In this document: positions 2,938-54,718 of the stretch, one piece after another
Layout of the letters: each line of letters opens with the position of its first letter
How positions within the stretch are numbered: the stretch's first letter is position 1
Assembly (NCBI GenBank): GCA_016207095.1
Contig: JACQQF010000027.1
Coordinates: 62,001-126,000, forward strand
Direction of reading: 5' to 3'
Source of the DNA: Candidatus Methylomirabilota bacterium
GTDB taxonomy: Bacteria > Methylomirabilota > Methylomirabilia > Methylomirabilales > Methylomirabilaceae
DNA length: 64,000 nucleotides
Notes under the pieces: generated by a model
What the model was told of the DNA's origin: nothing
Seen by the model: only the letters and a program-made list of their open reading frames with translations
Database searches by the model: none
Position numbers and translations under genes: made by a program

Positions 2938-5007
<2,070 letters not shown>

Positions 5008-5135: not shown

Positions 5136-5753
5136 ATGGCCACATCTGTGAAAATCATTGAATACTCCGATTATCTCTGACCCTGGTGCTATCCCGCGGC
5201 GGTCCGGCTGCGGAAGGTTCAGGAACGATTCGGTGAAAGGATCTCTGTCGAACGGCGGGCGTTCCCCTTGCGGCCCGAGCCCGATCCGACGGTGACGTTC
5301 AAGGGAACATATAGAGAGGCGGCCTGGCAGCGAGCGGCCGCGATGTCTGCGCCGGATGGCGTGACCTTCACGATGTGGGCCCGGGATGACTATCCAACCT
5401 GGAGCCTTCCCGCGCTCGAAGCTGCGAGGTGCGCCGCCCTACAAGGGAATGAAGTTTTCGAGCGAGTCCATCTCCTCCTGTTTGAGGCGTTCTTCACCAA
5501 GGGGATCAATATCGGTAACCGTGAGGAGGTCATCGAAGTGGTCCGAGGTGCCGGTGTGGATATGGATCGGTTCCTGAAGGAGTACGACGCTGGAAGCGCC
5601 AGACCACAGGTTCTGAAGGAGTTCGACGAGGCGCACAGCACGTATCAGATCACCGCCATCCCGACCGTCATCTTCAATGGCGGCCGGAAGGTCGTCGGCG
5701 CCACCTCGCTTGAGGAATATCTGAAGATCCTGAACGCGCTGGGAGTCTCATAG
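5136..5753 (+). CDS. DsbA/FrnE-like thiol-disulfide oxidoreductase, selenoprotein (Sec15)
   Basis: Read with TGA at 5178-5180 as selenocysteine, the frame is open from ATG 5136 to the TAG at 5753 (205 residues) and begins MATSVKIIEYSDYL-Sec-PWCYPAAVR. Family members have CPWC here, so the TGA falls exactly on the nucleophilic Cys of the thioredoxin fold. Downstream are the helical insertion typical of DsbA/FrnE and the cis-proline loop ITAIPTVIFNG. A SECIS-like hairpin follows the TGA. GGGGG lies 5 nt before the ATG. A gene caller starting at 5268 loses the whole active site. The likely role is reduction or isomerisation of disulfides in the cytosol, since no signal peptide is seen; the substrate is unknown. 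The alternative, a nonsense mutation, fits poorly with two similar cases in the window. Confidence 0.88.
5194..5213 (+). promoter_or_regulatory. Bacterial SECIS hairpin of the DsbA-like selenoprotein
   Basis: CCGCGGC pairs with GCTGCGG (7 bp, one G-U) around the loop GGTCCG. The first loop G is 21 nt after the Sec TGA (5178-5180). The GGUC start of the loop matches the SelB-contacting loop known from formate dehydrogenase SECIS elements. Confidence 0.75.
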
Positions 5754-5808: not shown

Positions 5809-7299
5809 TTGAGAGAAGTGAATTCCGTGGAATCAGCAAATTATCTTCCCGTCACGGTCGATAAGAGTCATCTGGTCACGATTGGCGAGCGACTCTATTC
5901 AGAGAGCATCGAGCTGATCCGTGAGTTGGTGAACAACGCCTACGATGCCGACGCGACGCAGGTGAAGGTCACCATCAGCGAGACCACCGTCTCCGTCGAG
6001 GATAACGGGACCGGGATGGACCTGGATGGACTCCGCCAATACTTCATCATCGGCTCTCAGGAGAAGCTTTCGAAGCCTAAGTCTCCCATCTTTCGCCGCG
6101 ATCGGATCGGCCAGTTCGGCATTGGCAAGTTCGCCACCCTCTCGGCGTGTCAACGTTTTGTTGTCTCCACGCAAAAAGGGGACTTCGCGGCACGAGTAAC
6201 CTTCGATAAAGCGGAATGGTCGAGGCCGGACGGGGAGTGGCGCCTGCCTATCGAGATCCTCCAACCGAATCCCGAGAAGAGCGATGGGACGACGGTCATC
6301 TTGTCAGATCTGACCAAACAGTTCGCTCCCCAAGACGTGGAGCGGAAGCTGATCGAAGGCACCCCGCTGAAGGTCTCCAATTTCACCGTCTCTCTCAACG
6401 GGTTCCGGGTTCGACCGAAAAGCCTTGCCGGCCACGCCGTTCCATTCCTCGAAGGGACAGAATACGGGCCGATTACGGGAGAAATCGTCATCCTCCCGGC
6501 GTCCGCAGCCTCCACGGAAGAGCTGGGCGTGGAAGTAAAGGTCAAGCAGGTGATGGTCCGCCGGGAGCTGTTCGGGGCTGAGACATGGGGAAAGGTGGCG
6601 GCGCGAATCCGGGGAGAGGTCAATGCCGACTTCCTCCCGATTACCAGCGACCGTTCAGGGTTCGTCCTCGATTCCCTCGAGTACCAGGCCTTTCACCAGA
6701 CAATGCAGAAAGTCATGGAGGAGATCCGCGCTGTCCTCGGCCGCCTCACCGGCCAGCGGGAACGGCGGGCGGCATCGCGCGCACTCAACGAGGCCCTCGA
6801 GAGGATCACCAGGGCGTTGACCAGAAATCCTGACTTTTCGCCATTCGGAGCGATCCCGATCGGCGATTCCGGAGGGATCGGCGGAGCGGCTGCCACATCC
6901 TCTCCACGCGAGGTGGCCGGTGACCGAACCGTCGATGCAGGAGCGGCCCAAGAGAAACCAGCCGCTGCCAAGGTGAAGCGGAAAACGAAGACACCGGCAG
7001 TGAAGCGGCTCACACCAGATGCCGTCATCAGGCGGCTCAAGTTTGGCCAGTCGGGAATCTCTTGCTGCCTCGACCACTTCGGTGAAGATGGCCCGGAGTG
7101 CTTCAGCGAGGGGACGGTGGTCTACGTGAACAGGGATCACCCGCTCTACCAGCGAGAGGCCAAGAAAGCGGAGCCCCACACCATGCACCTGGCCCGGCTC
7201 CTGACCCAAGAGATCGCCCTCATGAAAGACCCGCGGAACCCTCGACAGGCATTCGAGCGCCAATCGAAGCTTCTCCGCGATTCCTTCATCGACGACTAG
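5809..7299 (+). CDS. GHKL (HSP90/MORC-like) ATPase of unknown role
   Basis: A 496-residue protein with an N-terminal Bergerat ATP-binding fold: N box ELVNNAYDADAT (residues 39-50), G1 box VEDNGTGMD (63-71) and G2 box GQFGIGKFA (101-109). A second S5-like domain follows to about residue 290 (QVMVRRELFGAETWG...LPITSDRSGF), then a coiled, basic, low-complexity linker (about 365-400, KPAAAKVKRKTKTPA) and a compact C-terminal domain with a Cys pair (ISCCLDHFG). It is not a histidine kinase, because no H box or receiver is present. The closest architecture is the paraMORC/HSP90-like group, some of which sit in defence islands. The start is TTG at 5809 after GGAAGGG; GTG codons shortly downstream are alternatives. 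Confidence 0.75.
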   Translation: MREVNSVESANYLPVTVDKSHLVTIGERLYSESIELIRELVNNAYDADATQVKVTISETTVSVEDNGTGMDLDGLRQYFIIGSQEKLSKPKSPIFRRDRIGQFGIGKFATLSACQRFVVSTQKGDFAARVTFDKAEWSRPDGEWRLPIEILQPNPEKSDGTTVILSDLTKQFAPQDVERKLIEGTPLKVSNFTVSLNGFRVRPKSLAGHAVPFLEGTEYGPITGEIVILPASAASTEELGVEVKVKQVMVRRELFGAETWGKVAARIRGEVNADFLPITSDRSGFVLDSLEYQAFHQTMQKVMEEIRAVLGRLTGQRERRAASRALNEALERITRALTRNPDFSPFGAIPIGDSGGIGGAAATSSPREVAGDRTVDAGAAQEKPAAAKVKRKTKTPAVKRLTPDAVIRRLKFGQSGISCCLDHFGEDGPECFSEGTVVYVNRDHPLYQREAKKAEPHTMHLARLLTQEIALMKDPRNPRQAFERQSKLLRDSFIDD

Positions 7300-7304
7300 C
7301 AGTG

Positions 7305-7333
7305 ATGGACGCGACCCGGCGGGTCGCCCCTAC
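7305..7333. repeat. REP palindrome, copy 1 (degenerate left arm)
   Basis: The core GCGACCCGGCGGGTCGC (7311-7327) is a perfect palindrome and the right end continues CCCCTAC. The left outer arm has decayed to GATGGAC. It ends exactly at the ATG of the transposase gene. Confidence 0.85.
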
Positions 7334-7969
7334 ATGAAAGATGGGAAGTGGCTGGTGGTGACCACAGCCTACAGAGAACACCATCGACGTTCCACACGGC
7401 TTCGTGGATACGACTATTCGCAGAGTGGAGCCTATTTCGTCACGGTCTGCGTGCAGAATCGCCAATCCGTGTTCGGCAAGGTGACGAACGGGAGGATGAT
7501 GTTGAGTGGGGCGGGACGCATGGTGGAGGAAGAATGGTTGAAAACACCTGCCGTTCGACCGCAAGTGCAATTGGATGAATTTGTGGTGATGCCCAATCAT
7601 TTCCATGGGATTATTATGATAAGGAATGAATCCGGGACGGTAGGGGCGACCCGGCGGGTCGCCCCTACAGGTCCCACGGCTGGATCGTTGGGCGCAATGA
7701 TGGCGCAATTCAAATCGATCGCCACAAAGCGTATGCGTGCCCTTGGACATTCAAGTTTCGCCTGGCAGCGAAATTATTACGAACACATCGTGCGTGACGA
7801 AGACTCCCTGAACTGCATTAGAGAATACATTCTCACCAATCCCTTGCGGTGGGACCTCGACCGAGAGAACCCCGAACGCAAAGACGACGATGATTTTGAT
7901 CGCTGGTTGGCCAGCTTCGCGACCAGGCCAAAGGGCGTCTATGGGCGATCCGCCCCGATCCGCACGTAG
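7334..7969 (+). CDS. REP-associated tyrosine transposase (RAYT)
   Basis: A 211-residue Y1 transposase of the HUH superfamily. MPNHFHG (residues 86-92) is the metal-binding HUH motif, and the catalytic Tyr is probably Y148 or Y149 in AWQRNYYEHIVRDEDSL. RAYTs cleave single-stranded DNA next to REP palindromes. Here REP copies lie at both ends and one lies inside the gene in frame, adding residues VGATRRVAPTG at about 103-113 between HUH and Tyr. The stop codon TAG lies within the 3' REP. It is either a complete self-flanked cassette or one whose product tolerates the insert; whether it is still active is unknown. Confidence 0.9.
   Translation: MKDGKWLVVTTAYREHHRRSTRLRGYDYSQSGAYFVTVCVQNRQSVFGKVTNGRMMLSGAGRMVEEEWLKTPAVRPQVQLDEFVVMPNHFHGIIMIRNESGTVGATRRVAPTGPTAGSLGAMMAQFKSIATKRMRALGHSSFAWQRNYYEHIVRDEDSLNCIREYILTNPLRWDLDRENPERKDDDDFDRWLASFATRPKGVYGRSAPIRT
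7640..7668. repeat. REP palindrome, copy 2 (inside the RAYT gene, in frame)
   Basis: A full 29-nt palindrome: GTAGGGGCGACCC, then GGCGG at the centre, then the matching right arm ending CCCCTAC. It is identical to copy 3 and is read through in frame by the transposase gene. Confidence 0.92.
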
Positions 7970-7994: not shown

Positions 7995-8059
7995 CAATGC
8001 CGAACAAATATATCGGGCACATAAAGCCGAGAGCATCGGATAGAGGTAGGTGGGAAGAG

Positions 8060-8545
8060 ATGGCGGATCCAGCGAGACTTGAACAGGCAGAATTCTATTT
8101 CAAGGAAGGATACCGATTCCAGATGAACGGGGATCTGGAGGGCGCGATCGCGGCGTACACCCGTTCCATCGAGATGTACCCGACGGCCGAGGCTCATACC
8201 TTCCTGGGCTGGGCGTATAGCTTTCAGGGGCGGATCGATGAGGCGATCAAGGAGTGCGAGACGGCCATCCAGATCGATCCGGACTTCGGCAATCCGTATA
8301 ACGACATCGGCGTCTACTTGATCGAGAAGGGGGAGTACGATGAGGCGATCCCGTGGCTCCAGAGGGCGATGGTGGCCAAACGATACGAACCCCGCCACTA
8401 CCCTTACATGAACATGGGTCGGGTCCTGGTGCGCAAGGGCAGGTACCAGGAAGCGATCAAAGAGTTGAAGATGGCCCTGACTATCGAGCCGAATTACCCC
8501 GCGGCCAGGATCGAATTGCACAAACTCCTGGGCATGTTGAATTAA
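8060..8545 (+). CDS. Tetratricopeptide repeat protein, 161 aa
   Basis: A soluble TPR protein with about four repeats: FYFKEGYRFQMNGDLEGAIA, AHTFLGWAYSFQGRIDEAIK, PYNDIGVYLIEKGEYDEAIP and PYMNMGRVLVRKGRYQEAIK. No signal peptide or enzyme domain is seen, so it is probably a protein-protein adaptor. The ATG at 8060 is preceded by GGTGGGAAGAG; an upstream in-frame ATG at 7997 is next to the REP sequence and is less likely. It is followed 32 nt later by the Ste24-type protease gene. Confidence 0.85.
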   Translation: MADPARLEQAEFYFKEGYRFQMNGDLEGAIAAYTRSIEMYPTAEAHTFLGWAYSFQGRIDEAIKECETAIQIDPDFGNPYNDIGVYLIEKGEYDEAIPWLQRAMVAKRYEPRHYPYMNMGRVLVRKGRYQEAIKELKMALTIEPNYPAARIELHKLLGMLN

Positions 8546-53260: not shown

Positions 53261-54718
53261 CTACGGCGCTGCAACCGAGGCAACCACTTTGGCCAATTCC
53301 TCCAGCTCCTCCTCCAGCACGGTGCGGGGGTCGAGGAGGACTTGGCCGTCTTTAATCCGGACCATGACCGGTGGGTCGGTTCGTCGCAGCCGCTCTTCAA
53401 TGACCTGGGAGGTCAGGTGGGCCGCCCGCACCGCAACGAGGCGCGTCGGAATCGCCTCGAGCGGCAGCGCCCCGCCGCCAACCTCCGACGTCCCACTGAT
53501 CACCGACACCTCGAGATGACCGGAGGCGAGTGTCGCGATTTGACCGCAGAGCCGGCTGGCCCGTCGATCGACCTCCCGGAGCGGCATGGCCAGCGCCCGG
53601 AGCACCGGGATATCTGAAAAGGCCCGCCCCTCGTCAAGGCAGAGGCGGAGGGTGGCCTCCAGCGCGGCCAGCGTCAGCTTGTCGATCCGCACGGCCCGGG
53701 CCAGCGGATTGAGGCGAAGCCTCTCGACCAGCGACCGCTTGCCAACGATCAAGCCCGCTTGCGGCCCTCCAAGCAGCTTGTCCCCGCTGAAGGTCACAAG
53801 CTCCGCGCCGGCGCGGACGCTCTCTGAAGGCAGCGGCTCCTTCGGTAGCCCGATCTGCGTGAGATCCAAGAGGGCACCGCTCCCCACATCTTCCACGACC
53901 GGCAGACCGCGTTGCTGGCCCAGCGCGGCGAGCTCGCTCACGGGGACCTCTGCGGCGAAGCCCAGAATCCGGAAGTTGCTGGTGTGAACCTTCAGGAGCA
54001 TGGCGGTCGCCCCACCGATGGCCGCCTCGTAGTCCCTGAGGTAGGTCCGGTTCGTCGTCCCGACTTCCTTCAGGATCCCGCCGGCCCGACGCATGATGTC
54101 TGGAATCCGGAACGAATCCCCGATCTCCACCAGCTCCCCGCGAGAGACGATGACCTCCTTCCCCTCAGCCAGCGTGTTGATGGCCAGCAGCACCGCCGCC
54201 GCGTTGTTGTTCACCGCGAGCGCAGCCTCGGCGCCAGTCAGCCGACACAGGAGCCATTCCACATGGGCTTGCCTGGAGCGCCGAGTGCCACGCTCAAGGT
54301 CGTACTCCAGGTTGGAGTAGCCCCGCGCCACCTCGACGACGCGCTCGATGGCGGCCTCCGGTAGCGGGGCACGACCCAGGTTGGTGTGCACGATGACCCC
54401 GGTTGCGTTGATCAGCCGTCGCAGGGCCGGTCGATCCCGGCGCCGCGCGGCCTCCCGCGCCTCGGCGATCAGAGCAGCCCTGGGTGGTGGATCGGTCTGG
54501 GATGATCCGGACGGCCCGGCGGCCACAATTCGCCGCCACCGATCCAATACCTCCCGAACCGCCTCAACCACCGCCCAGCGCGGGACGCTCTCCATCAACC
54601 CCCGGATCGATGGCTCCTGCAACAACTCGTCCACCGAAGGGAGCTGCCTGAGCAGCAATCGGGCTCGGCTATCCAAGGAATCCATCTCCCCCATCGGCCC
54701 TCGAGAGCCGGAATCCAT
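53261..54718 (-). CDS. selA: L-seryl-tRNA(Sec) selenium transferase SelA
   Basis: A PLP enzyme converting Ser-tRNA(Sec) to Sec-tRNA(Sec) with selenophosphate. 485 residues. RQLPSVDELLQEP opens the N-terminal domain, then INATGVIVHTNLGRAPLPEA, NLEYDLERGTRRSRQAHVEW, VNNNAAAVLLAINTLAEGKE, VSRGELVEIGDSFRIPDIM and the PLP lysine in FSGDKLLGGPQAGLIVG. These are diagnostic of SelA. The start may be ATG 54718 or 54685. No selB, selD or tRNA-Sec gene is visible in the window. Its presence supports reading the three in-frame TGA codons in this window as Sec. Confidence 0.96.
   Translation of the reverse strand: MDSGSRGPMGEMDSLDSRARLLLRQLPSVDELLQEPSIRGLMESVPRWAVVEAVREVLDRWRRIVAAGPSGSSQTDPPPRAALIAEAREAARRRDRPALRRLINATGVIVHTNLGRAPLPEAAIERVVEVARGYSNLEYDLERGTRRSRQAHVEWLLCRLTGAEAALAVNNNAAAVLLAINTLAEGKEVIVSRGELVEIGDSFRIPDIMRRAGGILKEVGTTNRTYLRDYEAAIGGATAMLLKVHTSNFRILGFAAEVPVSELAALGQQRGLPVVEDVGSGALLDLTQIGLPKEPLPSESVRAGAELVTFSGDKLLGGPQAGLIVGKRSLVERLRLNPLARAVRIDKLTLAALEATLRLCLDEGRAFSDIPVLRALAMPLREVDRRASRLCGQIATLASGHLEVSVISGTSEVGGGALPLEAIPTRLVAVRAAHLTSQVIEERLRRTDPPVMVRIKDGQVLLDPRTVLEEELEELAKVVASVAAP

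Follow-up and report, generated by a model that had tools for sequence, protein, structure and literature searches.

The stretch of DNA analysed here, which we call the window, comprises 64,000 nucleotides of a contig from a Candidatus Methylomirabilota bacterium. Near its start lies a gene whose frame opens with ATG at 5136, passes through a TGA at 5178-5180 and closes with TAG at 5751-5753, and is otherwise uninterrupted (Table 1). When the TGA is read as selenocysteine (Sec) the product has 205 residues including Sec15, and the motif around the UGA is DYL-U-PWC. We refer to this product with Sec written as Cys as P0001; its only cysteines are those at positions 15 (Sec), 18 and 99. The list of open reading frames under genetic code table 11 retains only TTG 5268-5753, a mechanical ORF of 161 amino acids from which the active site is missing. 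To the extent that a mechanical ORF can stand for an annotation, this bears out the expectation of an earlier sequence-only reading of the locus, that standard annotation would give a truncated protein starting at 5268. A codon-usage scan of the window for other TGA-interrupted genes returned seven candidates, none convincing; the scan missed the known gene and excludes nothing.

Table 1. Coordinates of the selenoprotein gene, its elements and its neighbours in the window.
Feature	Position	Strand	Evidence
ligA, NAD-dependent DNA ligase, directly upstream	2968..5007	+	Pfam; also upstream in L045/L010 and L062
frnE/dsbA-like selenoprotein gene	5136..5753	+	one-TGA frame; PF01323 E 2.1e-22; full-length homologue alignment
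UGA, predicted to be read as Sec, first residue of U-P-W-C	5178..5180	+	TGA 72, TGC 26, TGT 10 of 108 aligned loci (pool including the best 80 of 148)
Cys18, UxxC partner cysteine	5187..5189	+	40/40 alignment rows
Predicted SECIS hairpin, 7 bp stem, loop GGUCCG 5201-5206	5194..5213	+	-13.0 kcal/mol; within bacterial limits; enriched vs recodings
N1-G-U-N2 apical-loop core, +21 to +24 after UGA	5201..5204	+	45/45 pair; 7 tree changes
Cys99, third cysteine, frequent in near homologues	5430..5432	+	Cys in 22/40 rows
Pro176, expected cis-proline of thioredoxin fold	5661..5663	+	Pro in 40/40 rows
GHKL ATPase gene	5809..7299	+	Pfam HATPase_c_3
IS200-like (Y1) transposase gene	7334..7969	+	Y1_Tnp just under Pfam cut-off
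TPR protein	7997..8545	+	Pfam TPR; downstream homologues in 13 loci rows
selA, selenocysteine synthase	53261..54718	-	TIGR00474 597 bits; PF03841 E 9.7e-151; ORF

Family, fold and published relatives

P0001 matches the DSBA domain of Pfam (PF01323) over residues 7-198 with 80.3 bits (gathering score 25.6), while nothing in NCBIfam exceeded any cut-off. Membership of the Rcas_1661 family (seleno)lipoprotein (NF041057) was tried and rejected, at 49.6 bits against a curated cut-off of 190. In a single-sequence search of solved structures Pseudomonas DsbA came slightly ahead of FrnE; a profile of 40 homologues placed FrnE of Deinococcus radiodurans (DrFrnE) first, with an E-value of 2.4e-22. The AlphaFold2 model of P0001 has a mean pLDDT of 96.1, and a Foldseek comparison with the PDB gives DrFrnE for each of the top five matches, with TM-scores up to 0.81 at ~21% identity. 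The DsbA/FrnE-like assignment originally made without database searches is thus supported by both the solved-structure profile search and the fold. Residues 15 (U/C), 18 (C) and 176 (P) are constant in all 40 rows of the homologue alignment, in which D12, C/U15, P16, W17, C18, R24 and L25 form an invariant set around the UGA; the modelled fold leads us to expect Pro176 in the cis state.

FrnE proteins are described as predicted cytoplasmic thiol oxidoreductases of the DsbA family, and DrFrnE as a proposed disulfide reductase whose disruption brings greater sensitivity to cadmium and diamide; a C-terminal CxxxxC is described for many members of the group, though not all, and is present in DrFrnE (PMC8945050). 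DrFrnE (DR_0659; 5CNW, 5CO3, 5CP1) is the nearest solved relative of the window protein by profile and fold, with a CP(W/F)C site and a predicted cytoplasmic location. It differs in having Cys for Sec and a C-terminal CxxxxC, whereas the window protein has Sec and, judging from cysteine positions in the 40-row alignment, lacks CxxxxC; the two share 21% identity. We do not hold CxxxxC to define the FrnE subfamily. The first strand of the AlphaFold2 model starts at residue 5, which, judged by eye, would be too early for a signal peptide before it.

The main competitor for this assignment is a selenoprotein of the HCCA isomerase or kappa-class GST branch, acting on small-molecule substrates. HCCA isomerases and kappa GSTs are indeed among the fold matches, and a possible HCCA isomerase (3fz5) matches the profile at E 1.3e-10, but FrnE structures rank higher by sequence and by fold, and all 40 alignment rows retain the UxxC/CxxC pair. 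HCCA isomerases and kappa GSTs are not known to be CxxC proteins. We consider this placement improbable. It is also very unlikely that the functional product is the short protein from 5268, without an active site and with the upstream part merely a leader: a mechanical ORF for it does exist, but the residues flanking the UGA (the invariant set above) rank with the best conserved in the whole protein, and the start region MATS.KIIE aligns with that of the nearest relative.

DsbA-like selenoproteins with a UxxC motif (COG2761) have been described from the Sargasso Sea in 2005, from bacterial genomes in 2006 and as GOS DsbA 1 to 3; a 2016 table gives 41 and 45 DsbA-like entries, taken here as organisms and genes, and a 2026 catalogue includes a 'DsbA-like protein form 1', names DsbA-like accessions such as NIP15863.1 and calls the functions of such proteins largely uncharacterized (PMC13188914; further literature in PMC12013277, PMC1794560 and PMC5029168). 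That Sec-containing relatives with a thioredoxin fold had already been reported in bacteria, as the sequence-only reading stated, agrees with the literature, where the DsbA-like UxxC kind has been in print since 2005. Like these published proteins (COG2761 / PF01323), the window protein combines a DSBA domain, a predicted Sec as the first residue of UxxC and a predicted bacterial SECIS element after the UGA (PMC1088965, PMC2398784, PMC9312934, PMC13188914). Its own clade, mainly Methylomirabilota and Rokubacteria with the motif DY[LV]UPWC[YF]PAAVRL, was compared with the published members by description only. The window protein is very probably a genuine selenoprotein of this already catalogued kind, and what its case adds is a Sec-only clade, evidence from a base pair within the SECIS loop, and linkage to a TPR gene. 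One Methylomirabilota metagenome-assembled genome has been predicted to carry 63 selenoprotein genes (as cited in PMC13188914), and the window gene may be in the tables of that study. At the level of search listings, we found nothing on the window gene in literature on selenoproteins of Methylomirabilis or Methylomirabilota, and nothing beyond a database paper that joins FrnE, selenoprotein and DsbA.

Conservation of the UGA and the machinery to read it

Relatives were collected from 60 genomes (the window's own and 59 others) and from a separate scan of named genomes, which contributed the best 80 of 148 qualifying stretches. P0001 has a match at E 0.001 or better in 43 of the 60 genomes, many of them weak. 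Among the matches listed, 29 (own genome included) reach at least 50% identity, and 28 of these contain exactly one TGA; the 29th, in G002, is a contig-edge fragment that runs from residue 83 and falls short of the Sec site. Pooling both searches gave 110 loci, of which L033 and L035 stop short of the site and 108 can be aligned there. The codon in this pool, including the best 80 of 148, is TGA in 72 loci, TGC in 26, TGT in 10, and no other. Removal of copies left 54 distinct Sec and 34 distinct Cys sequences. By title, the Sec carriers belong to candidate division NC10, Methylomirabilota, Rokubacteria, Nitrospinota and Tectomicrobia, and further to Binatota, Deltaproteobacteria/Myxococcota, Chloroflexi and Terriglobia. 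Rokubacterial Cys homologues (L036, L038 and L083; 38-41% identical) have CPWC for UPWC in the same column.

The in-frame TGA that the sequence-only reading saw in place of the nucleophilic Cys of CPWC is confirmed and is no chance stop: 72 of the 108 loci share it, the other 36 have a Cys codon at exactly that column, and Sec is conserved as TGA in 54 distinct sequences. The frame, reported as open and homologous on both sides of the TGA, is so in relatives as well, where we find TGA or Cys at the site and open frames around it, not the random stops or frameshifts elsewhere in the gene that had been named as grounds for doubt.

In a quickly built tree with 87 rows (L098 was too short and omitted; long-branch warnings apply to the far rows), the Sec/Cys exchange needs eight changes. 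The window falls in a well-supported group that has Sec in 44 of its 44 rows, Cys never, while a Rokubacterial group of nine rows (L036, L037, L038, L083, L086, L087, L089, L091 and L092) alternates between the two, with four Sec and five Cys. Within the genus, matches reaching 50% identity occur only in the window's own genome (G000) and G002, or 2 of 15 genomes, a patchy presence that can be read as recent loss or lateral gain. Of the other genus genomes (G001-G014), 13 of 14 lack such a match, and 12 of those 13 still have a tRNA-Sec above cut-off. Two related genomes each contain a pair of divergent DsbA-like TGA genes ~3 kb apart on opposite strands (G017:C56:3254-3844 / 6740-7348 and G024:C37:4746-5336 / 1192-1806). 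The gene of L071, a record titled Klebsiella pneumoniae, is near-identical to that of L069 (Deltaproteobacteria), and the record is probably a misnamed bin.

The complete set of selA, selB, selC and selD, absence of the last three of which had been named as evidence against a selenoprotein, is present in the genome. The tRNA-Sec gene (selC; C100:41243-41333, 71.4 bits, cut-off 47) has the anticodon TCA according to ARAGORN and lies on the window's own contig, ~21 kb ahead of the window start; selA is in the window itself, also on contig C100, and selB is on C92 (367 bits). The selD gene (398 bits; L125, G000:C18:30067-30990) has a TGA within its frame followed by the hairpin GGCCCA-GGUCU-UGGGCC with loop GGUCU, and is itself a selenoprotein candidate. 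Across the 60 genomes, selB exceeds its cut-off in 53 and tRNA-Sec in 49; only matches above cut-off were counted because control genomes match weakly for selB, selD and tRNA-Sec.

Two simpler accounts of the TGA can be set aside. A pseudogene, whether by nonsense mutation or sequencing error, would account for a stop codon within the frame, and loss may be under way in the lineage because matches at or above 50% identity are confined to 2 of 15 genus genomes, but 54 distinct sequences have TGA at this very codon with frames open on either side, and the codons of the hairpin (see below) are under extra constraint; we regard this account as already refuted by conservation of the site. That TGA is an ordinary sense codon here, or is read through without selenium, is hardly credible: the frame would be open under such a code, but TGA ends 23 of the 34 large non-overlapping ORFs in the window and is also the terminal stop in 25 of the 54 Sec homologues, and is therefore not reassigned, while the codons that replace it are solely Cys codons, and tRNA-Sec and SelB are present.

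The hairpin and a covarying pair in its loop

The hairpin starts 13 nt past the TGA, with its stem formed by 5194-5200 and 5207-5213, and among 200 dinucleotide shuffles 10 reach an equally stable fold. A 2026 review gives limits for bacterial SECIS elements of 3-9 nt for the loop and 4-16 bp for the stem, a G among the two opening loop bases, a UGA-to-loop distance of 16-37 nt, and a minimum free energy of at most -7.5 kcal/mol (PMC13188914); the window hairpin lies within all of them (loop 6 nt, stem 7 bp, GG, 20 nt, -13.0 kcal/mol). Relatives mostly have a shorter or mismatched stem around the same loop position. The 7-bp hairpin with loop GGTCCG that the sequence-only reading singled out is accordingly present in the window as described, but its exact stem is not conserved.

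Folds of the whole 42 nt after the UGA were barely better than those of synonymous recodings (mean z -0.45, 26 sequences), and a scan for perfect stems at the -7.5 limit found them in 4 of 45 Sec homologues against a recoding mean of 9.85, that is, in fewer, because most stems contain a mismatch. When hairpins of at most -7.5 kcal/mol with a loop start at +19 to +22 were counted against 200 rounds of synonymous recoding, in a stretch chosen after the structure had been seen, they were present in 36 of the 45 Sec homologues (recoding mean 13.5, maximum 22) and in 7 of 9 other Sec sequences (mean 2.1, maximum 6). The corresponding count for Cys sequences, 6 of 34 (mean 3.3, maximum 8), is not clearly enriched, and as a group the Cys homologues are without a clear SECIS signal, unlike the Sec homologues. 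Codon variation at Ala +6 (GCG in 43 of 45) and Arg +9 (CGC in 41 of 45) is far below the expectation from codon usage; it is low as well at Ser +75, outside the hairpin.

Within the loop, positions +21 and +24 can pair in all 45 distinct close Sec homologues that carry the motif PAAVRL, as G-C in 19, C-G in 18 and G-U in 8. Both are third codon positions, and they covary through synonymous codon choice. None of 100,000 shuffles reached 45/45 pairing, and between +1 and +45 no other column pair keeps pairing throughout the 45 sequences while varying on both sides, although this one was picked after the data had been seen. Elsewhere the same positions pair in 15 of 34 Cys homologues and 3 of 9 other Sec sequences; in five of those nine the best hairpin has a GGU loop whose closing pair lies one base further out. 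The loop state changes seven times on the tree, and the four independent pairs on well-supported branches all agree (sign test, p 0.125). The review's SECIS pattern has an in-loop base pair around G and G/U, its letter pattern showing one more base between (PMC13188914). We match the G-U of the window loop to G23 and U24, conserved sites in the SECIS of E. coli formate dehydrogenase, for which a bulged U17 is also named (PMC8659212).

Gene neighbourhood and proposed role

Neighbours were assessed by direct comparison of homologue surroundings with the window genes; clustering of ORFs was swamped by overlapping ORFs and was rejected. The upstream ligA recurs in L045/L010, which are one gene present twice, and in L062, from Tectomicrobia. 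A homologue of the TPR gene, with 54-66% identity, lies downstream on the same strand in 13 loci rows, of which L011 and L048 are copies, and in many Rokubacteria this gene stands directly behind the selenoprotein gene: the TPR alignment begins at most 35 nt from the selenoprotein stop, or overlaps it, in 11 rows, the others being L019 (175 nt) and L020 (208 nt). We read the GHKL ATPase and transposase genes of the window (5809..7969) as a later insertion that split the selenoprotein gene from its TPR neighbour. The Y1 transposase gene is possibly part of what parted them. The TPR linkage suggests a shared job.

Taken together, we put at roughly 95% the probability that the gene encodes a DsbA-family protein of the FrnE-like type that contains Sec and is probably cytosolic, in which Sec is inserted at position 15 by SelB acting on the hairpin and then used in disulfide chemistry. 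SelB and Sec-tRNA (anticodon UCA) would recognise the hairpin just past the UGA at 5178-5180 through its apical loop, where one base pair closes the G-U core, and so direct Sec into residue 15. In catalysis, the selenolate of this residue would attack a client disulfide (or sulfenic acid), Cys18 would resolve the intermediate to leave Sec bonded to Cys, and the enzyme would be reset by thioredoxin or glutathione. As far as comparison of sequences carries, the UGA with its Sec/Cys exchange, the machinery, the hairpin with its covariation, and the family are in evidence; that Sec is actually inserted, that the enzyme works in the reductase or isomerase direction and in the cytosol, and what serves as its electron donor and client are what we infer.

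More tentatively, the Methylomirabilota/Rokubacteria clade might possess an obligately Sec-dependent FrnE-like enzyme that forms, with its TPR partner, a selenium-dependent protein-disulfide repair pair, with the in-loop SECIS pair flipped repeatedly by paired synonymous changes; we think this possible, though on balance doubtful. In lineages known mainly from metagenome-assembled genomes, table-11 gene finding splits this selenoprotein gene at its active site. The covariation of the loop pair is natural evidence for the recognition core of the bacterial SECIS and offers ready paired synonymous variants, and the mixed Sec/Cys clade near a Sec-only clade provides a natural comparison in which to study the reasons for retaining Sec.
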